A stretch of DNA of 64,000 bases from assembly GCA_947446645.1 (NCBI GenBank), contig CANFHA010000002.1:1-64000 (forward strand), read 5' to 3'. Shown here piece by piece: positions 55,141 to 63,413 of the stretch. The stretch is from Chitinophagaceae bacterium (GTDB taxonomy: Bacteria > Bacteroidota > Bacteroidia > Chitinophagales > Chitinophagaceae). The first letter of the stretch is position 1, and every line of letters begins with the position of its first letter. A model generated the notes under the pieces. That model saw nothing but the letters and a program-made list of their open reading frames with translations, did not search any database and had not been told where the DNA came from. A program made the position numbers and the translations under genes.

Positions 55141-55608
55141 TTACGACAGCAATTTTTGCCTGAGCAGGAATTCAAGCTGGTCATTAGAAAGACTCAGTTT
55201 GTAAGTCATTTCCTTTTCATCCATTTTCTGCTTATAAACATCAAAAGCCCTGGTTATGGTCATATCCAGTTCTTCTTCATTCCATGGTTTACTCAGGTAG
55301 TGAAATATTTTGCCTTTGTTAACGGCGTCTATCACGGCATTCATATCGGCATAGCCGGTAAGCAGAATTCTTATAGGATCAGGAAATTCGTCAAGTATAG
55401 ACTCCAGAAATTCAACCCCGGTCATATGGGGCATTCTCTGGTCAGTAATAATAATATTTACATCATTGTTACGCAGTATCTTAATGGCCTCTTCGCCGCT
55501 TATAGCGGTATATACTTTATATTTTACCCTGAATACGGCCTTGAACGAAACAAGATTGTTTGATTCATCATCAACATATAATATATTGATTCCATCCTGT
55601 TTCGCCAT
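55141..55608 (-). CDS. Single-domain response regulator (receiver)
   Basis: The 155-residue protein is a CheY-like receiver: acidic pair in YVDDES (Asp13/14), phosphorylation site Asp56 in ITDQRMPHMTG, and the conserved Lys in SKPWNEEEL. A helical tail of about 30 residues follows. There is no output domain. It is closely related in wording to the receiver at 60970 (VLYIDDEQNNL, CDQRMPEKTG). It is divergent from the E1-nitroreductase gene and probably belongs to the same phosphorelay as the kinases downstream. Confidence 0.9.
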   Translation of the reverse strand: MAKQDGINILYVDDESNNLVSFKAVFRVKYKVYTAISGEEAIKILRNNDVNIIITDQRMPHMTGVEFLESILDEFPDPIRILLTGYADMNAVIDAVNKGKIFHYLSKPWNEEELDMTITRAFDVYKQKMDEKEMTYKLSLSNDQLEFLLRQKLLS

Positions 55609-55743
55609 AACTCAGATAACATTACTATGATTAATATTATTTGCAAGGTAGTAAAAATATTGAGAAAATAACTGGTAATTGCAGTACATTTAACCACCTG
55701 TTTAGGAAAAACACGTTGTTTTACAGTAAAAATACTTAATGTT

Positions 55744-58026
55744 ATGTTAAGCGAAAAAGTAAATCAGATGAAGAAATTAAATGACGTTTTTCTGCCATAT
55801 TTTTATCGTATAGGTAATATTGATGATAAATCCGCGTTCGAAAAGCTGATGACGGAAAATAATTTATTCGTATATGACGAAATTTATGATCATCTCAAAG
55901 AGCTGGTAAAAAGTAAACATCCTGCAAAGAAATTAAAAGATGCCGATTATGAAAGGCTGATACCGGAACATATTGGTGAAATAAAAATGGAAGACTACGG
56001 GGTTTGGGTCTATTATCCATGGTCGCGCAGGGTAGTACATATGCTGGATAAGGAAGAATTTATCGAAGTACGCACTAACAGGAACAAATACAAAATTACA
56101 GGTGCCGAGCAGGCCGAGTTGTCGGAAAAGATAATAGGCGTTATTGGTTTATCGGTTGGTCAATCCATTGCGCTTACCATTGCTATGGAGCGCGTATGCG
56201 GCCAGCTTCGGCTCGCCGATTTTGATACGGCAGAGTTAAGCAACCTCAACAGGCTGCGCACCGGCATACATAATCTTGGCCTGCGGAAAACGGTTATCGC
56301 TGCCCGGGAGATCGTAGAGATCGATCCCTACCTAGATGTGAAAATATTCAACGACGGAATTACGGATGCCAACATGAATGATTTTTTCACGGGGGATGGT
56401 AAGCTGGATCTGCTGGTAGAAGTTTGTGATGGCCTGGATATCAAAATAACCAGCCGCTTTAAAGCCCGTGAGTTGGGTATACCCGTAGTTATGGATACTA
56501 ACGACAAAGGCATGCTGGACATTGAGCGGTTCGACCTCGAGCCTGCCAGGCCCATTTTGCACGGGCTGGCGGGTGATCTTGATCCAAGTAAAATAAAAGG
56601 CCTTACTAACGAGCAAAAGATTCCCTACATACTCAAAATGATAGGGGCAGAAACGATCTCTACCCGATTAAAGGCATCTATGATGGAGGTGGAGCAGTCA
56701 GTTAACACCTGGCCACAGCTGGCATCGTCAGTTGTTTTAGGTGGCGCGCTCACTACCGATGTTTGCCGGAAAATACTTTTAGGCCAAAATTCGGTATCCG
56801 GCAGGTTTTACCTCGATTTTGATGAGATAATAAAGTACGAGAATAACGCGGGTATAGATACTTCGTCGTTCGATGGGCCTCCTGAGCTCACAGAAGATGT
56901 GATGCAGGCTATTTCAGAGACGAGCAAGCCAACAGCTGGCTTCCACACTATTCCGCAGGATAAAATAGAAACAATTGTAAAGGCAGCCAGCCTGGCACCA
57001 TCGGGCGGTAACGCTCAGCCCTGGAAATTTCTATATAGAGGCGGCAGTCTTTATATTTTCCACGACGAGCACTATTCTTTTTCTCTGCTCGACTATGAGC
57101 ATTCAGGCTCCTACCTTGGCTTTGGGGCTATGCTGGAGAACATAGAGATAACGGCTTCGTCCCTTGGGCTTTCTGCAGCAGCAAATGTTTTTCCGCTAAA
57201 AGAGGATAAACGGCTTATTGCAGTTGTTACATTTAAAGAGCTGGTTGCGCATAGTGCGTTGAAATATCTTTCATCTTCCATACCGTTAAGGCTTACCAAC
57301 AGGAATGAAGGAGACAGAAAGTTATTACCTGAAAAGGATAAAGCAGATTTGATCAGTATTGCTGCCACAGTGCCCAGCGCCCGGTTGCAGCTGTTTGAAG
57401 GCGAGGAGACTATCCACACTTTTGCCGAGATACTTACGAATACGGAGCGGATACGCTTCCTGCATCCCCGTGGGCACTACGACACATTTGTCAAAGAGCT
57501 AAGGTTTACACAGGAAGAGATTTTAAGCACTGCCGACGGCCTTGATATTGCTACGCTTAATATGAGCGAGAGCGACAAAGCTGCATTGCGCATAGCACGC
57601 GATCCTTCTGCAATTAATTTTCTCCATAAGCTGGCAAAGGGCGAAGGCTTCAAAAAGATTTCGCGAAAAGCGGTTGTCAGCGCATCGGCTATAGCTGTTG
57701 TGAGCATGAACGGGCATGAGGCGGAGCATTTTCTTGCGGGTGGCCGCGCTGTGCAGCGTGTATGGCTGGAGGCTACGCACAGGAATATATCCTGCCAGCC
57801 CGTGTCGCAGGCTGTGTTTATGCTGGAGCGCTACCTGGGTAAGGGCGCGGCAGACTTTAATAATTACGAGAAAGAGCAGCTGAAAGCAATACATAATGTA
57901 TTGTCGGGTCTGCTTAATCTTGAAGCGGGTCGGTACCCTATATTTATTTTCAGGCTGTTTCATGGCGAAGTGCCTAAAGAAAGGTCGCTGAGAAGGCCTA
58001 TTGATAAAGTATTATTTGTAAATTAG
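55744..58026 (+). CDS. E1/ThiF-nitroreductase fusion, Rv1355c family
   Basis: The 760-residue protein has an N-terminal region of about 120 residues of unknown fold. A ThiF/E1-like adenylation domain (about 128-330) follows with GVIGLSVGQSIA (Rossmann loop, normally GxGGxG), DFDTAELSNLNRLR (ATP-contact motif) and NDKGMLDIERFD. A nitroreductase-like region (about 395-760) has AASLAPSGGNAQPWKF and AMLENIEITASSLGL, and a second flavin-fold half AGGRAVQRVWLEATHRNISC. This matches mycobacterial Rv1355c (MoeY). E1 plus flavin dehydrogenase is the enzyme pair used in azole peptide maturation, but no YcaO or peptide is nearby. The substrate is unknown. Next gene starts 63 bases on. Confidence 0.75.
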   Translation: MLSEKVNQMKKLNDVFLPYFYRIGNIDDKSAFEKLMTENNLFVYDEIYDHLKELVKSKHPAKKLKDADYERLIPEHIGEIKMEDYGVWVYYPWSRRVVHMLDKEEFIEVRTNRNKYKITGAEQAELSEKIIGVIGLSVGQSIALTIAMERVCGQLRLADFDTAELSNLNRLRTGIHNLGLRKTVIAAREIVEIDPYLDVKIFNDGITDANMNDFFTGDGKLDLLVEVCDGLDIKITSRFKARELGIPVVMDTNDKGMLDIERFDLEPARPILHGLAGDLDPSKIKGLTNEQKIPYILKMIGAETISTRLKASMMEVEQSVNTWPQLASSVVLGGALTTDVCRKILLGQNSVSGRFYLDFDEIIKYENNAGIDTSSFDGPPELTEDVMQAISETSKPTAGFHTIPQDKIETIVKAASLAPSGGNAQPWKFLYRGGSLYIFHDEHYSFSLLDYEHSGSYLGFGAMLENIEITASSLGLSAAANVFPLKEDKRLIAVVTFKELVAHSALKYLSSSIPLRLTNRNEGDRKLLPEKDKADLISIAATVPSARLQLFEGEETIHTFAEILTNTERIRFLHPRGHYDTFVKELRFTQEEILSTADGLDIATLNMSESDKAALRIARDPSAINFLHKLAKGEGFKKISRKAVVSASAIAVVSMNGHEAEHFLAGGRAVQRVWLEATHRNISCQPVSQAVFMLERYLGKGAADFNNYEKEQLKAIHNVLSGLLNLEAGRYPIFIFRLFHGEVPKERSLRRPIDKVLFVN

Positions 58027-58089
58027 CTTTAGTTATAAACGGGGGGATCATTTGCATAAAAGATTTTTTGCAAAACTTTTGCCAGATAA

Positions 58090-58800
58090 ATGATAAGTAT
58101 ACGAGCATTCAGAGCAATTGAAGATATAGATTCCTGCAAATCGTTCGCGGAAGGACATGCTAATGTCTTGCGAGACTACGGAGTGAGTAAGGTTACCTCA
58201 TCAAGCAATGATTGGTTTTACAATCCCTCTGCTTATGTTATGATCGCCGAAAACACCGAAACCGGTGAAACCGTTGGCGGCATCAGGATACATATTGCAG
58301 ATGGTATTACCCGCCTCCCAATGGAGGATGCCATTGCTATAGTAGATACCCGTGTTTACGATCTTATTGCAAAGTACATTCCCATAGGTACCGGTGAGCT
58401 GTGTGGCCTTTGGAATGCCAAGTCAGTGGCAGGTTACGGCCTTGGCAGCTACTTTCTTATGAGGGTGGGTATCAGTGTCACCCAACAGCTTAAGTTGCCT
58501 ACACTGTTCGCGCTCTGTGCGCCGCATACGCTACAGATCAGTGTTGAAAAAGGCTTTGAAAAGGAAACCTCTATAGGCAATGAAGGCACATTCATTTATC
58601 CCAAACTTGACCTCGTAGCTACGAGCATCATCGTTAAAGACACGCTTCATTTACCTTATGCCCAGCCGGAAGAAAAGAGGCTCATTTTTGAATTGCGCGA
58701 TAATCCCCAGATCAAAAGGATGGAGTATGGGCCTAAAGGGAGCCTGGAAATGACCTATAGCCTGGACTTTAGCCGTAATAATAAATCAGTAGTAGCTTAA
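58090..58800 (+). CDS. GNAT-fold acyltransferase-like protein
   Basis: The 236-residue protein has a GNAT-like core: AYVMIAENTETGETVGGIRIH (beta strands leading to the acceptor site), TGELCGLWNAKSVAGYGLGSYFLMRVG (the acyl-CoA loop QxxGxG/A in variant form, near residues 107-120) and LPTLFALCAPHTLQISVEKGFEKE. The N-terminal LuxI-type signature is not visible. It may transfer an acyl group to an amino acid, peptide or the product of the upstream fusion (inference). It lies between that fusion and the sensor kinase, 19 bases before it, so co-transcription is very likely. Confidence 0.6.
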   Translation: MISIRAFRAIEDIDSCKSFAEGHANVLRDYGVSKVTSSSNDWFYNPSAYVMIAENTETGETVGGIRIHIADGITRLPMEDAIAIVDTRVYDLIAKYIPIGTGELCGLWNAKSVAGYGLGSYFLMRVGISVTQQLKLPTLFALCAPHTLQISVEKGFEKETSIGNEGTFIYPKLDLVATSIIVKDTLHLPYAQPEEKRLIFELRDNPQIKRMEYGPKGSLEMTYSLDFSRNNKSVVA

Positions 58801-58819
58801 ATAAAATCTTTAGCTGAAA

Positions 58820-60961
58820 ATGAAGAAATACTTCTGCCTTTACCTGTTATTATGCCTTTCCCATTTTGCGAGTGCAATTGACAAAGTAGTTATAGATGAA
58901 AAATTCGCGCCTCGACTTATTGGGGAAAATATTTCTGTTATTGAAGACAAGACTAACCAGCTCCAGTTTAAGGACATCGTTGGCCGTACTGATTTTAAGC
59001 AAAACACGCAGCAGATCGCTAATTTCCAGGTTACAGAGTCATCATTCTGGCTGAAGTTTACAGTAAACAATATCAACAATGCCCGGAAGAACTACATAGA
59101 GGTGGTGCAGCCCATACTGGAAGAAGTAGACCTCTATTATCCCGATAGTAGCAACACATACCAGGTAGTTCATTCTGGCCTCAAATACCCGTTCGGTCAG
59201 CGCAAATATTCCAGTACAAACTTCCTGTTCGATCTCAATCTGAAGCCCGGAGAGGAAAAGACATACTACATGCTCATTAGGGGCAAAGAGCAGGTACTGG
59301 CGCCAGTTCGCATTGTAGACCAGGACTCTTACTACACCGATGCTACCAACCGCAATATATGGTTCGGTATCTATTGCGGTATTATCCTCGTCATGTTCCT
59401 GTACAATGTATTTGTGTACATAAGCATCAGGGAGAAAAGTTACATCTACTACGTGCTGCATACGCTGTTTGTGGGGCTCACGCAGGCTTCATTAACCGGT
59501 TTTACTTTCAAATATCTCTGGCCCAATTCGCCGTGGTTTGCTAACTATAGTATCTTCCTTTTTACATCACTGGTAAGCATAGTAGGTGTGCAGTTCCTTA
59601 TTGAGTTCATGCGTCTCCGGAAGACCTCTCCCCGGTTATTTATGGTGCTCAAGGTGTTTCAATCGATCTACCTCATTTACATGATCACAAGCCTTATGGG
59701 CTTTTACTCCTTCACCTATAAAGCCATATTACCTACACAGTCCACTATAGCATTGGTTATCCTGGGCATATCGGTTTACTTATACAGGCAGGGCTTCCAG
59801 GAGGCGAAGTACTACCTTATAGGCTGGTCTTCGCTGATGCTTGGTATCATAGTATATGTTTCTAAAGACTTTGGTGCTATACCTTACAATAACTTCACGG
59901 TTTATTCACTCCTGTTCGGGTCCGCTGCAGAGGTTACCCTGCTGTCTTTCGCCCTTGCAGATAAAATAAACATCTACCGCAGGGAAAAGGAACATTCGCA
60001 GGAGCAGGCGCTTTTGGCGTTGCAGGAGAATGAGCGCATTATACGTGAGCAGAATGTGATACTGGAATCGAAAGTAGAGGAGCGCACCTATGAGCTGCAG
60101 CTTTCAAACGATGGCCTTAATAAGGCAATGAAGGAGCTTAAAGATGCGGAAACGCAGCTGGTAGAATCAGAGAAGATGGCATCCCTCGGTCAGCTTACAG
60201 CAGGCATAGCCCATGAGATCAATAACCCGATCAACTTCGTTACCTCTAACGTAAAGCCGCTCAACAGGGACGTGCGTATATTGCTCGATGCAATAGGAAC
60301 AATGACTGAAATAGCAACGACAGAAGGACCTGTTTCTGATAAAAAGAAGAAGATCGCTGAGTTCATGGAGGAATTGGATTTCGACTACCTGAAGGAGGAA
60401 ATAGACCAGTTGCTGAGTGGAATAGGGGAGGGTGCGTCGCGCACCGCCGAGATCGTAAAGGGGCTGCGTATTTTCTCCCGTCTCGATGAGGATGACCTCA
60501 AAAAAGCCAATATTAACGAGGGTCTGGAGTCAACATTGGTTATCACCAACAACTTGCTGGGCAATACAGTAAAAATTGAAAAGAACTATGCCGACCTGCC
60601 GCTTATTGAGTGCTATCCCGGGAAGCTCAACCAGGTGTTCCTGAATATCATTTCCAATGGCGTCTATGCCGTGAAGAAGCAGTTTGGTGAGGCCGAGGGT
60701 GGTAAACTTATAATCTCAACGAGCTTTGACGATACTAATGTTTTCATTAAACTTGCAGATAATGGTATAGGCATGGATGAGAACACGAAAAAGAAGCTGT
60801 TCGAACCCTTCTTTACCACAAAGGATGTAGGTGAGGGAACCGGTTTGGGATTGTCTATTGCGTACAACACTATTAATAAACATAATGGGCAGATACAGGT
60901 GAATTCCGAAATTGGAAAAGGGACGGAATTTATACTTATATTGCCTCTAATTCAGAAATAA
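58820..60961 (+). CDS. 7TMR-DISM sensor histidine kinase
   Basis: The 713-residue protein has a signal peptide (to about residue 20), a periplasmic 7TMR-DISMED2 beta-sandwich (NFQVTESSFWLKFTVNN, about 40-170), seven membrane segments (about 180-390), a coiled coil (EHSQEQALLALQENERIIREQ to KAMKELKDAETQLVE), a dimerisation domain with phospho-His465 in LTAGIAHEINNPINFV, and an ATPase domain (DNGIGMD, TKDVGEGTGLGLSIAYNTINKHNGQIQV). The periplasmic sandwich usually binds a carbohydrate-like or small ligand. The next gene, a receiver-kinase, begins eight bases later. Confidence 0.92.
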   Translation: MKKYFCLYLLLCLSHFASAIDKVVIDEKFAPRLIGENISVIEDKTNQLQFKDIVGRTDFKQNTQQIANFQVTESSFWLKFTVNNINNARKNYIEVVQPILEEVDLYYPDSSNTYQVVHSGLKYPFGQRKYSSTNFLFDLNLKPGEEKTYYMLIRGKEQVLAPVRIVDQDSYYTDATNRNIWFGIYCGIILVMFLYNVFVYISIREKSYIYYVLHTLFVGLTQASLTGFTFKYLWPNSPWFANYSIFLFTSLVSIVGVQFLIEFMRLRKTSPRLFMVLKVFQSIYLIYMITSLMGFYSFTYKAILPTQSTIALVILGISVYLYRQGFQEAKYYLIGWSSLMLGIIVYVSKDFGAIPYNNFTVYSLLFGSAAEVTLLSFALADKINIYRREKEHSQEQALLALQENERIIREQNVILESKVEERTYELQLSNDGLNKAMKELKDAETQLVESEKMASLGQLTAGIAHEINNPINFVTSNVKPLNRDVRILLDAIGTMTEIATTEGPVSDKKKKIAEFMEELDFDYLKEEIDQLLSGIGEGASRTAEIVKGLRIFSRLDEDDLKKANINEGLESTLVITNNLLGNTVKIEKNYADLPLIECYPGKLNQVFLNIISNGVYAVKKQFGEAEGGKLIISTSFDDTNVFIKLADNGIGMDENTKKKLFEPFFTTKDVGEGTGLGLSIAYNTINKHNGQIQVNSEIGKGTEFILILPLIQK

Positions 60962-60969
60962 ACACACAC

Positions 60970-62076
60970 TTGGATACACCAAAGAAAATAAAGGTTCTAT
61001 ACATCGATGATGAACAGAACAATCTGAATGGATTCAAAGCTACGTTCAGGTTTGACTATACAGTGTTGATCGCGGCTAATGTTACCCAGGCTTATGCTCA
61101 CCTGAATAGCCACCCTGATATCAGTGTAATACTTTGTGACCAGAGAATGCCGGAGAAAACGGGTGTCCAGTTTTTTGAAGAAATGCGTGATTCGTTTCCG
61201 GAGCCGGTACGAATGCTCATCACTGGCTACACCGATATTGAGTCAGTTATTGACGCAGTAAACAGGGGGCATATTTTCAGGTACATCAAGAAACCGTGGA
61301 CGGACGCAGATATCCGTTCTGCTATAGAGGAAGCAAACAAGTTTTATCTCACCAATACCATGCTGGTAGCGAAGAACAAAGAGCTGCAGTCGGCATATGA
61401 TGAGCTGGGTAAGTTTGCTTATAGTGTCACTCATGATGTCAGGGGGCCGCTGCTGAGCATTCTTGGTGCACTTGATCTCGCAAAGAATATGGAAGACCCC
61501 GCTGAGCTCAGGGATATACTGGAGATGATGGAAGACGCCATCCACAAGCTGGATGAATACATAAAAAATACGCACGAGTACTACAAGCTAAAAAGGGGAC
61601 TGCTGCAGTTTGAAGTGATCGACTTCAACAATGTTGTCAAAGATATAGCAGCGCTCTTCCGTATTGCCGGCAGGATGGACAATATAAAGTTCATTTCAAA
61701 TGTTGTGCAAAACGATGAGTTTCTCTCTGATGAGATATCTATAAAGATGATCCTCAACAACCTGCTCTCTAATGCATTCAACTATCAGCGGAAAGATGCT
61801 GCGGAGAAGTATGTAAGCGTAGAAATAGTTGTGGCAGACAATGTGGCAACAATAAAGGTGAAAGACAACGGCATAGGCATACATGAAAGCCATATAAACA
61901 ATATCTTTACCATGTTTTACAGGGCCACATCTGAAGAAACGGGGTCTGGATTAGGACTATATAATGTAAAAGACGCGCTCGCTAAACTGAGCGGTGAAAT
62001 TGAGGTAGCCTCGGTAGTAAATGAGGGCACAACTTTTAACGTAATGATCCCCGGCAAGGCAAATGGTACAAACTAA
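60970..62076 (+). CDS. Receiver-histidine kinase hybrid
   Basis: The 368-residue protein has an N-terminal receiver (Asp57 in LCDQRMPEKTG), then a HisKA domain with phospho-His155 in SVTHDVRGPLLSILG and an ATPase domain (DNGIGIHESHINNIF, GSGLGLYNVKDALAKLSG). It has no membrane segment, so it is a cytoplasmic relay kinase that may be controlled by phosphorylation of its own receiver. Start is TTG at 60970. It overlaps the next gene by 14 bases and follows the 7TMR-DISM kinase by eight. Confidence 0.9.
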   Translation: MDTPKKIKVLYIDDEQNNLNGFKATFRFDYTVLIAANVTQAYAHLNSHPDISVILCDQRMPEKTGVQFFEEMRDSFPEPVRMLITGYTDIESVIDAVNRGHIFRYIKKPWTDADIRSAIEEANKFYLTNTMLVAKNKELQSAYDELGKFAYSVTHDVRGPLLSILGALDLAKNMEDPAELRDILEMMEDAIHKLDEYIKNTHEYYKLKRGLLQFEVIDFNNVVKDIAALFRIAGRMDNIKFISNVVQNDEFLSDEISIKMILNNLLSNAFNYQRKDAAEKYVSVEIVVADNVATIKVKDNGIGIHESHINNIFTMFYRATSEETGSGLGLYNVKDALAKLSGEIEVASVVNEGTTFNVMIPGKANGTN

Positions 62077-62455
62077 ACTTAATTTTATAGTCGTTGATGA
62101 CAGTAAGCTCGATTGCTTCATTGCTGAGAAGATCATCAAGAACACGGGCATAAGTGAGTCGATCAAGTCGTTCCTTCATGCGCCGGAAGCGCTTGAGTAC
62201 ATCAAATCACTCCCTGGTGATGACAGCATTCGCACAATAATGCTTGTGGATATACAGATGCCAGTGATGAATGGGTTTGAATTTGTAGAGGCTTTCGAAA
62301 AATTGCCCGATGAGATTACGCGTAATTATACCATCTACATCATCTCATCGTCTATCAACGAGAATGACCTCAGCAGGGTGCACAACTACGCCACGGTAAA
62401 GCAGTTTCTGAACAAGCCACTTACCAGCAACAACCTGGCTGTTTTGCTTGCTTAG
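62063..62455 (+). CDS. Stand-alone receiver (response regulator)
   Basis: The 130-residue protein is a CheY-like receiver with acidic pair in VVDDSKLDC, Asp63 in LVDIQMPVMNG and the Lys in FLNKPLTSNN. No output domain. Its start overlaps the end of the hybrid kinase by 14 bases, so the two are translationally coupled and likely cognate. It may act through protein contact or relay to another kinase. Confidence 0.9.
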   Translation: MVQTKLNFIVVDDSKLDCFIAEKIIKNTGISESIKSFLHAPEALEYIKSLPGDDSIRTIMLVDIQMPVMNGFEFVEAFEKLPDEITRNYTIYIISSSINENDLSRVHNYATVKQFLNKPLTSNNLAVLLA

Positions 62456-62561: not shown

Positions 62562-63413
62562 TTGGCTTTTGAATTAGTAGAATGTCCGCGGGATGCAATG
62601 CAGGGATGGTCCCATTTTATTCCTACAGCTGATAAAATTGACTACCTCAATGCCCTCCTGAAGGTCGGCTTCGATGTCCTTGATTTTGGATCGTTTGTTT
62701 CGGCAAAAGCCATACCACAGCTGGCGGATACAAAGGACGTAATTCCAAAGCTGGATATGACCAATACGCGCAGCAAACTGCTAGCCATTATTGCCAATAC
62801 ACGTGGGGCAGAGGAAGCGGTGCAGTATGATGAGATCACCTATCTTGGCTTTCCTTTCTCCATTTCAGAAACATTTCAGCTCCGCAATACCAATAAAACA
62901 ATCGCGCAATCACTGGCACAGGTAGAGGAGATGCAGAACCTTTGTGTGCGCGCAAACAAACAGCTGGTTATCTACATATCCATGGGTTTTGGTAACCCCT
63001 ATGGCGACGACTACAATGCGGAAGTAGCTATAAGCTGGGTGCGCAAGCTAAGCCAGCTAGGCATTAAGACCATTGCTATGGCCGATACAGTGGGCGTTGC
63101 AGAGCCCGCAAACATCACCTATATCTATAACCACCTTATCCCTGAGTTTAAAGATATCAGTATTGGCGCGCACTTTCATTCTGCCCCGGATAAATGGGAG
63201 GAGAAGATACAGGCTGCGTATAATGCAGGCTGCCTGCGCTATGATAGCGCCATTAAAGGTATTGGCGGCTGCCCCATGGCAGAAGATGTACTGGTAGGCA
63301 ACATAGCCACAGAAAACATCATCGACTGGTGCGATCGCAACAACATACCGCTACAGCTCAACAAGGCGGCTTTCGCCGAAGCATGGGAAATGGCCGGCAG
63401 AATATTTATCTGA
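62562..63413 (+). CDS. HMG-CoA lyase-like TIM-barrel protein
   Basis: The 283-residue protein has the HMGL-like pattern: ELVECPRDAMQGWSHFIPTADKI (PRDxxQ active-site segment), GAHFHSAPDKWEEKIQAAYNAG (HxH metal ligands) and GIGGCPMAEDVLVGNIATE (catalytic Cys loop). It probably cleaves HMG-CoA or a related 3-hydroxy acyl-CoA in leucine breakdown. The start is taken as TTG at 62562 since no ATG precedes the conserved PRD segment; it could begin at another codon nearby. The upstream sequence repeats TTTTGAA-like units. A 106-base gap from the receiver suggests a separate transcript. Confidence 0.83.
   Translation: MAFELVECPRDAMQGWSHFIPTADKIDYLNALLKVGFDVLDFGSFVSAKAIPQLADTKDVIPKLDMTNTRSKLLAIIANTRGAEEAVQYDEITYLGFPFSISETFQLRNTNKTIAQSLAQVEEMQNLCVRANKQLVIYISMGFGNPYGDDYNAEVAISWVRKLSQLGIKTIAMADTVGVAEPANITYIYNHLIPEFKDISIGAHFHSAPDKWEEKIQAAYNAGCLRYDSAIKGIGGCPMAEDVLVGNIATENIIDWCDRNNIPLQLNKAAFAEAWEMAGRIFI

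Follow-up and report, generated by a model that had tools for sequence, protein, structure and literature searches.

A six-gene cassette at positions 55141-62455 of a 64,000-nucleotide stretch of Chitinophagaceae bacterium DNA (GenBank assembly GCA_947446645.1, contig CANFHA010000002.1, positions 1 to 64,000; the whole stretch is referred to here as the window) probably encodes a polymorphic "pherotype" signalling system that uses an oxazolone derived from an N-acyl amino acid. The cassette joins a predicted biosynthetic pair, an E1/nitroreductase fusion and a GNAT-like acyltransferase, to a 7TMR-DISM sensor kinase, a receiver-histidine kinase hybrid and two single receivers. The parts of the enzymes and of the kinase that would set specificity change jointly across related loci, which suggests, from sequence comparison, a chemical communication system. 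The new element is the wiring of enzymes of a known type to a 7TMR-DISM kinase relay.

The fusion (55744-58026, plus strand; ThiF and Nitroreductase domains, NCBIfam NF005901) comprises an E1/ThiF-like domain (aa 1-370, 55744..56853; Pfam, NCBIfam), predicted to cyclise an N-acyl amino acid in an ATP-dependent manner, and a nitroreductase (NR)/flavin-dependent oxidase domain (aa 381-760, 56884..58026; Pfam, NCBIfam and a PDB match), the predicted desaturase. It is followed on the same strand by the GNAT-like protein of 236 aa (58090..58800), a putative amino-acid N-acyltransferase that a profile match places as distantly TrzA-like, and by the 7TMR-DISM kinase gene (58820-60961; Pfam domains). 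The sensor region of this kinase (58820..60019), with a periplasmic DISMED2 domain at aa 36-166 and a 7TM domain at aa 179-382 (Pfam), is the part that co-varies with the enzymes; the histidine kinase part (Pfam, alignment) occupies 60020..60961 and carries H465. Among the loci of relatives, median pairwise identity was 72% for the kinase part, 67% for the hybrid, 75% and 70% for the receivers REC1 and REC2, and 71% for a downstream HMG-CoA lyase-like gene (HMGL). The variable parts gave 33% for NR, 36.5% for the sensor, 42% for GNAT and 56% for E1.

Co-variation was measured in two sets of loci. The first, from 22 genomes, holds rows with E1, NR, GNAT, sensor, kinase, hybrid and HMGL, with fragments and two extra loci of G010 excluded and with the kinase of G012 represented by a partial piece with a split frame. 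The second was reduced from 92 loci with the four enzyme and sensor domains and the kinase to 85 with the hybrid and 79 after deduplication, and was thinned to 67 loci as a check. In the 22 genomes, given kinase, hybrid and HMGL, the sensor correlated with NR at r 0.78 and with GNAT at r 0.75 (p 0.0002), values that became 0.74 and 0.70 when each enzyme was also given the other; the correlation with E1, 0.64, fell to -0.12 given NR and GNAT. Given kinase and hybrid, partial r in the 79 loci was 0.70 for NR, 0.50 for GNAT and 0.55 for E1 (p 0.0005, 2000 permutations), and the sensor retained 0.54 with NR given all others, the hybrid contributing nothing (0.008). The 67 thinned loci gave 0.585 for NR and 0.451 for GNAT (p 0.0005). 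Between the sensor and the kinase half of its own gene the correlation was weak (partial r 0.12 to 0.19). Among the enzyme parts it is NR that matches changes in sensor identity most closely, and within the sensor the periplasmic domain and transmembrane residues 251-320 track NR most (partial r 0.49 and 0.52, obtained without permutation).

The same pattern was seen when loci were sorted into types at identity thresholds of 60% for GNAT, 50% for NR and 50% for the sensor, chosen after the identities were known. Sensors at least 50% identical were found in 86 of the 100 pairs of the 79 loci that shared both enzyme types, in 15 of 49 sharing the NR type only, in 11 of 115 sharing the GNAT type only and in 4 of 2817 sharing neither; the corresponding counts in the 22 genomes were 19/19, 0/12, 7/13 and 0/187. 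Synthase and ligand domain thus co-diversify, a trait of synthase-receptor systems. The preliminary description of this DNA had proposed that the enzymes make or alter a small molecule which the kinase senses; gene linkage and the co-diversification of sensor and enzymes lend support to that proposal, and from them we infer that the product itself is sensed.

Close relatives of the window differ by replacements that follow domain boundaries. Identity between the window and G004 is 76% for E1, 86% for GNAT, 87% for the kinase part and 92% for the hybrid, but 30% for NR and 32-33% for the sensor, while G015 gives 75-76% for NR, 79% for the sensor, 87% for the kinase part and 91% for the hybrid. 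More widely, the window or G015 compared with G001, G004 and G020 shows 87-92% in the kinase part and 32-34% in the sensor. In 40-residue segments, the fusions of the window and G004 are 72-95% identical at starts 81-321 and 10-50% from 341, the GNAT proteins 52-100% identical, and the kinase genes 15-50% at starts 1-321 and 50-100% thereafter, with the natural limit of the sensor near residue 335; in the comparison with G015, whose kinase and hybrid are no nearer to those of the window, the only dip lies at the E1-NR linker. As read from these alignments, NR and sensor are thus replaced around an intervening GNAT gene that is not. Fast evolution of the sensor in place of replacement was ruled out for the window group: by kinase and hybrid G015 and G004 are equidistant from the window, by sensor and NR they are not.

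Trees of 27 hand-picked rows (quick LG+G4 runs; L101 is a long branch in the kinase tree) were compared by approximately unbiased (AU) tests on groups chosen after the identities had been seen. The window, G015, G001, G004 and G020 fell together in the kinase, hybrid and GNAT trees (support 99, 100 and 99), a species clade that the sensor (p 7e-4) and NR (p 4e-31) data reject and the E1 data do not (p 0.44). The sensors of G001, G004 and G020 cluster instead with those of loci from Mucilaginibacter, Arcticibacter and Pedobacter (100), and this grouping is rejected by the data for kinase (p 2e-7), hybrid (3e-9), E1 (2e-8) and GNAT (3e-104); NR joins the rows of this sensor group without support (55), within a wider clade (100) that includes L109 and L122. 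The sensor of the window clusters with that of Pedobacter sp. MC2016-24 (100), at identities of 56% for sensor, 57% for NR, 68% for GNAT, 53% for kinase and 40% for hybrid; the hybrid data reject this group (p 1e-101) and the kinase (p 0.14) and E1 (p 0.10) data do not. In the NR tree G008 is the nearest neighbour of the window and G015, followed by Pedobacter MC2016-24 (100 together).

The genome of the window holds only two 7TMR-DISM_7TM proteins above the Pfam cut-off, and the second of them, unlinked to the cassette, served as a control (L236:4679-6847; G000:C3, about 216681-218846, minus strand). Close relatives of this paralogue occur in G004, G001, G005 and G006, with a fragment in G015, which together with the window's genome makes six genomes. 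Sensor/kinase identities to the window's copy were 56/59, 55/59, 55/55 and 54/56, about equal divergence in both halves, and 79/73 between G001 and G004; the G015 piece (445 aa, stop in frame; 42/58) was set aside. The cassette kinase, at 32-33/87 between the window and G004, is unlike this pattern, and sensor turnover as a general property of 7TMR-DISM kinases is not borne out by the paralogue in these six genomes. The paralogue's sensor is 52% identical to the cassette sensor of G027, 51% to that of G009 and 46% to that of G018, and at most 36% to the other 19 compared, so that it is a possible solo or eavesdropping receptor for the type of these three.

The arrangement itself recurs widely. 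Among 60 relatives, the acyltransferase was found in 31, namely in that of the window, in 26 of the other 34 of its genus and in 4 of 25 outside it; the fusion was matched in 33 of the 60 at E 0.001 or better, some weakly. In 29 of the 30 other acyltransferase genomes the 7TMR-DISM kinase lies within the cassette, and the contig of the thirtieth stops first. In a sample of 395 Bacteroidota genomes, with a limited number of candidates scored per genome, at least 13 carry the acyltransferase (the window's included), and in all 13 the cassette also includes the kinase and a partner of the REC type; a fusion-type E1 (at least 146 bits to NF005901) was found in at least 11, all within these 13. A scan of named records was restricted to the best 80 of 539 fusion relatives, and is biased toward window-like fusions. 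Of these 80 loci, 78 have the acyltransferase, 73 the acyltransferase and the kinase within a few genes, 63 a similar hybrid near the fusion (some others are cut) and 66 a similar single receiver; among the seven without a kinase, L103, L165, L175 and L179 are cut by contig ends. The cassette is spread over Chitinophagaceae, Sphingobacteriaceae, Cryomorphaceae, Dyadobacter and others, with Pedobacter, Mucilaginibacter, Daejeonella, Parapedobacter, Arcticibacter, Dyadobacter, Arachidicoccus and Cryomorpha among the carrier genera; Pedobacter sp. MC2016-24 and Mucilaginibacter arboris are carriers in culture. Acyltransferase, fusion and kinase genes share a strand in 79/79 analysed loci, and the commoner gene order, seen in 56 of the 79, has median gaps of 6.5 and 2 bases. 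A complete Bacteroidota-type cassette was also seen in L146, a record titled as a metagenome-assembled genome of Azovibrio restrictus, and is probably a misbinned contig.

Synthase and receptor genes are thus kept side by side across genomes, another trait of synthase-receptor systems, and chance adjacency was ruled out, as the arrangement recurs across genera and families. The preliminary description had asked whether the GNAT and 7TMR-DISM genes stay adjacent across genera, and had held that the linkage would be accidental if enzyme and kinase genes were not neighbours in related genomes; the enzymes and kinase stand together in the 73 of the best 80 loci given above, and on this check the linkage was not refuted.

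The fusion scores 792.5 bits against NF005901, the "Rv1355c family protein" (cut-off 476), over residues 9-758 and profile positions 4-719 of 722, that is, the whole length. Its NR domain matches the Acg nitroreductase 2ymv in a PDB sequence search (E 4e-7). Across 22 Bacteroidota fusions and two plasmid-borne actinobacterial Rv1355c-family proteins, 85 alignment columns are invariant, 68 of them in the E1 half, D229 included. Passages of the TrzAS paper describe TrzS as a synthase of N-acyl oxazolones that is partnered by an acyltransferase, report that TrzS made oxazolones in vitro, and name, in the M. smegmatis protein, D217 as an ATP-site residue, which was tested there, and R540 and Q651 as FMN-site residues (PMC12856293); D229 of the fusion is, by alignment, probably the equivalent of Asp217. 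Related tyrazolones and phenazolones are attributed to TyzACB and OxzAB in the cited parts of two reports (PMC12856293, PMC10404671). The preliminary description had called the system a candidate undescribed one, which holds for the gene wiring and not for the enzymes, because TrzAS, TyzACB and OxzAB, to which they are related, produce N-acyl oxazolones.

The acyltransferase was harder to place, with no Pfam or NCBIfam match at E 1 and no PDB sequence match at E 10. The best PDB matches of its family profile, serotonin N-acetyltransferases of the GNAT type, were weak (E 0.47) and covered a GxG-containing stretch. Compared by hhalign with the protein whose gene neighbours the TrzS-like genes of Rhodococcus and Nocardia, it gave E 3e-5 over 171 columns at a probability of 73.5; the best of 27 other window open reading frames (ORFs) gave E 0.018 over 29 columns and reversed sequences 0.63, with the limit that these controls were single ORFs and the target a four-row alignment. 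A single Rhodococcus TrzA-like sequence in place of the alignment gave E 4.3e-5. This neighbour of the TrzS-like gene was matched in 7/7 plasmid records where it was found (6 Rhodococcus, 1 Nocardia), on the same strand as the TrzS-like gene in the Nocardia record; the neighbours are themselves annotated as hypothetical or not annotated. Additionally, acyltransferase and E1-nitroreductase are joined in a single ORF in L174. NF005901 membership, the acyltransferase profile match and this single ORF together indicate that the pair most likely consists of a synthase of N-acyl amino acids and an oxazolone-forming cyclase/desaturase.

Two other candidate relatives of the acyltransferase gave no profile match, a Mycolicibacterium neighbour (L267:8151-9065) and a ThiF-family protein on a Streptomyces plasmid (L269:5128-6996). 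The N-terminal part of the latter is weakly GNAT/FeeM-like (E 0.004, 0.036) and its gene adjoins one for ketoacyl-ACP synthase 3; the locus is a possible further arrangement of an acyl-amino-acid cyclase. On the Rhodococcus plasmids L268, L270 and L272 the TrzS-like and TrzA-like genes lie beside a GGDEF-domain gene, in agreement with the cyclic di-GMP (c-di-GMP) genes that the cited part of the TrzAS paper places next to actinobacterial TrzAS loci (PMC12856293).

In the 13 phylum genomes, the second enzyme slot is filled by a fused E1-NR in 4, by E1 alone in 6 and by an ICMT-type carboxyl methyltransferase in 2, and the E1 is cut by a contig end in 1; acyltransferase and kinase are kept where this slot varies. 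The fusion slot holds an S-adenosylmethionine (SAM) methyltransferase in G035 and a flavin adenine dinucleotide (FAD)-binding oxidase in G028. E1 and ICMT enzymes each act on a carboxylate, and a closed or capped acid group on an N-acyl amino acid may therefore be the common theme of the slot variants. Other loci were observed to depart further. In G031 one ORF (L094:186-1715) joins the first ~141 E1 residues to the hybrid kinase, with hybrid, REC2 and HMGL kept and NR, acyltransferase and sensor kinase missing; the signal-specific module has either been lost naturally or is absent through misassembly. G010 has two further E1/nitroreductase loci (L083, L084) whose fetched stretches contain neither an acyltransferase nor a sensor kinase of the locus type, that of L083 near a beta-eliminating lyase and a PTPS gene. 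Genes for a methyltransferase, a GT2 and an NAD-dependent epimerase lie between fusion and acyltransferase in G018 (L071:9971-13078), and L149 has an adjacent pair of acyltransferase genes ahead of the sensor kinase.

The ORF list of the 64-kb window verified the six-gene cassette and reproduced the previously described gene order, with plus-strand spacings, from the fusion gene onward, of 63, 19 and 8 bases and then a 14-base overlap; Pfam and NCBIfam confirmed the earlier domain calls for the receivers, fusion, kinase and hybrid. The kinase scores 113.5 bits for 7TMR-DISMED2, 171.3 for 7TMR-DISM_7TM and 76.9 for HATPase, all above gathering, and 24.9 for HisKA, just under the 26.9 cut-off, and on these domains belongs to the 7TMR-DISM histidine kinases. 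The hybrid (60970..62076, plus strand, TTG start; Response_reg, HisKA and HATPase), with D57 and H155, is the predicted next relay step. REC1 (55141..55608, minus strand; Response_reg by Pfam and NCBIfam; D56) is divergent, and REC2 (62063..62455, plus strand; Response_reg; D63) closes the cassette. The phospho-acceptors were assigned by alignment; among the residues proposed earlier, His465 and D63 stand, and Asp57 and Asp56 agree only as an unordered pair. The kinase histidine and the hybrid's aspartate and histidine are invariant in 79/79 loci, and the receiver aspartates in 30/30 and 26/26 rows of a smaller set, a few of the 30 (e.g. G008) being the hybrid's own receiver where the divergent one lies beyond the fetched stretch. 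A Pfam scan of the window proteins showed no DNA-binding domain in the receivers or hybrid, which makes output by protein contact, regarded as necessary in the preliminary description, plausible. The region between the divergent genes (55609..55743), probably a promoter region, has alignment blocks common to G015, G004, G020 and G001, a conservation that relatedness alone may explain. HMGL (62562-63413), which scores under the NCBIfam cut-off, lies after the cassette in most loci of the genus (66-92% identity), and in the named set in same-genus records only.

In the mechanism that we propose, the acyltransferase would couple an acyl-CoA with an amino acid, as its distant homology suggests. 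Following the TrzS/OxzB family, the E1/ThiF domain would then activate the carboxylate with ATP and close a 5(4H)-oxazolone ring, which the flavin nitroreductase domain would desaturate. The product or an immediate derivative would be, judging by co-diversification, the cognate ligand of the adjacent 7TMR-DISM kinase, and, as the domain anatomy suggests, phosphate would pass from H465 to the conserved hybrid and the two single receivers that have no DNA-binding domains. The specificity parts (NR, sensor and elsewhere the acyltransferase) are swapped among close relatives and common to distant genera, with the relay constant.

Several observations weigh against this interpretation. In the 79 loci the sensor keeps only r 0.20 with GNAT given NR and E1 (0.18 for E1), the kinase half itself weakly tracks GNAT (0.19) and NR (0.11), sensors are unlike in 34 of the 49 pairs that share NR alone and in 104 of the 115 that share GNAT alone, and 4 pairs share like sensors despite unlike enzymes. 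By NR, G008 stands nearer to the window than Pedobacter MC2016-24 does, yet its sensor (38%) and GNAT (45%) are unlike those of the window, and the uncut loci L113, L142 and L164 among the best 80 have no kinase. Thresholds and AU groups were picked post hoc, although other thresholds gave the same picture. The acyltransferase is a distant match to TrzA (hhalign probability 73.5), and all 6 Rhodococcus records have their TrzA-like and TrzS-like genes in divergent orientation, not in an operon. No export gene was identified, and no search was aimed at export genes. Finally, the cited part of the TrzAS paper places tryptazolones more in cells and acyl-tryptophan intermediates mainly in the supernatant (PMC12856293), which makes the open acyl amino acid a possible extracellular ligand.

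This last point leads to a narrower alternative, overlapping with the signalling interpretation, in which the final ligand is an N-acyl (dehydro)amino acid or a hydrolysed derivative and E1 acts otherwise. Methyltransferases do replace E1 in some cassettes, tryptazolones are described as undergoing hydrolysis and alcoholysis and as being lost in acid, methanol and ethanol (PMC12856293), and the passages cited on stieleriacines, thalassotalic acids and kyonggic acids give ThiF and nitroreductase clusters with no observed oxazolone (PMC12479983); however, TrzS, the characterised member of the same fusion family, makes oxazolones in vitro (PMC12856293), and we regard this alternative as possible and the oxazolone as the better candidate. 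A switch of production, whereby the kinase responds to something else, such as envelope state or substrate supply, the receivers regulate the enzymes through contact or through their expression, and the oxazolone serves as a bioactive or envelope compound and not as a signal, seems unlikely. Such a switch would agree with receivers that have no DNA-binding domains in Pfam, with the cellular location of known tryptazolones and with the sub-inhibitory antibiotic induction in proteobacteria and the stress role discussed in the cited text (PMC12856293), but it does not predict a sensor that changes with NR and acyltransferase while the rest of the kinase stays. More improbable still is co-variation by linkage only, with whole or partial cassettes moving as blocks and the sensor following its neighbours in the absence of functional matching. 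The genes are adjacent, sensor types are common to different families, so that transfer does occur, and the kinase half weakly tracks both enzymes; linkage alone, however, accounts poorly for the change of NR and sensor around an unchanged GNAT gene between the window and G004, and for a sensor weakly tied to its own kinase half and strongly to the NR of another gene.

Known systems share some of these features. TrzAS (Rv1356c-Rv1355c type) and OxzAB likewise place an acyltransferase gene beside a ThiF cyclase-flavin oxidase fusion of the NF005901 family; the cassette adds the 7TMR-DISM kinase, hybrid and receivers where the actinobacterial loci have c-di-GMP genes nearby, and its acyltransferase is only distantly similar. 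LuxI/LuxM systems make an acyl-amino-acid-derived ring signal with an acyltransferase and have a dedicated receptor, a pairing that is also proposed for the cassette, which differs in its oxazolone route (ATP-dependent cyclase and flavin oxidase) and 7TMR-DISM receptor. RetS, LadS and SagS are 7TMR-DISM receptors with the same sensor domains, and ComQXPA of Bacillus has a DNA-binding regulator. In ComQXPA, the cited text describes a signal, modifying enzyme and N-terminal ligand domain of the kinase that vary, and a response regulator that varies least (PMC4008528), resembling the variable specificity parts and constant relay of the cassette; its signal is a modified peptide and its enzymes are unrelated. 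The tyrazolone pathway TyzACB has the three activities predicted here, with cyclase and oxidase in separate genes and no adjacent sensor kinase mentioned in the cited portion of its report (PMC10404671). Among the literature matches listed, judged by titles and abstract openings, none paired a 7TMR-DISM receptor with a synthase, and none of the open-access matches linked an oxazolone to a sensor kinase or described such a synthase-receptor cassette.

Altogether, we lean, with somewhat less assurance than for the pherotype interpretation as such, towards a pheromone system of Bacteroidota that is polymorphic and has not been described before, with oxazolones from N-acyl amino acids (in the variants, methyl esters or other carboxylate-masked derivatives) that would act as private autoinducers for 7TMR-DISM kinases, types would be swapped by domain-bounded recombination, and some solo receptors may hear another type. 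The cited part of the 2025 TrzAS paper names the role of oxazolones as a major unresolved question and raises signalling only as a possibility (PMC12856293). If true, the system described here would be the first established physiological role for bacterial oxazolones. With its candidate receptor, its set of specificity types found in nature and matched pairs on which swaps can be tried, the locus opens the role of oxazolones to direct testing in soil bacteria that can be cultured, Pedobacter among them, and it may provide a role for fatty acyl-amino-acid ring compounds.

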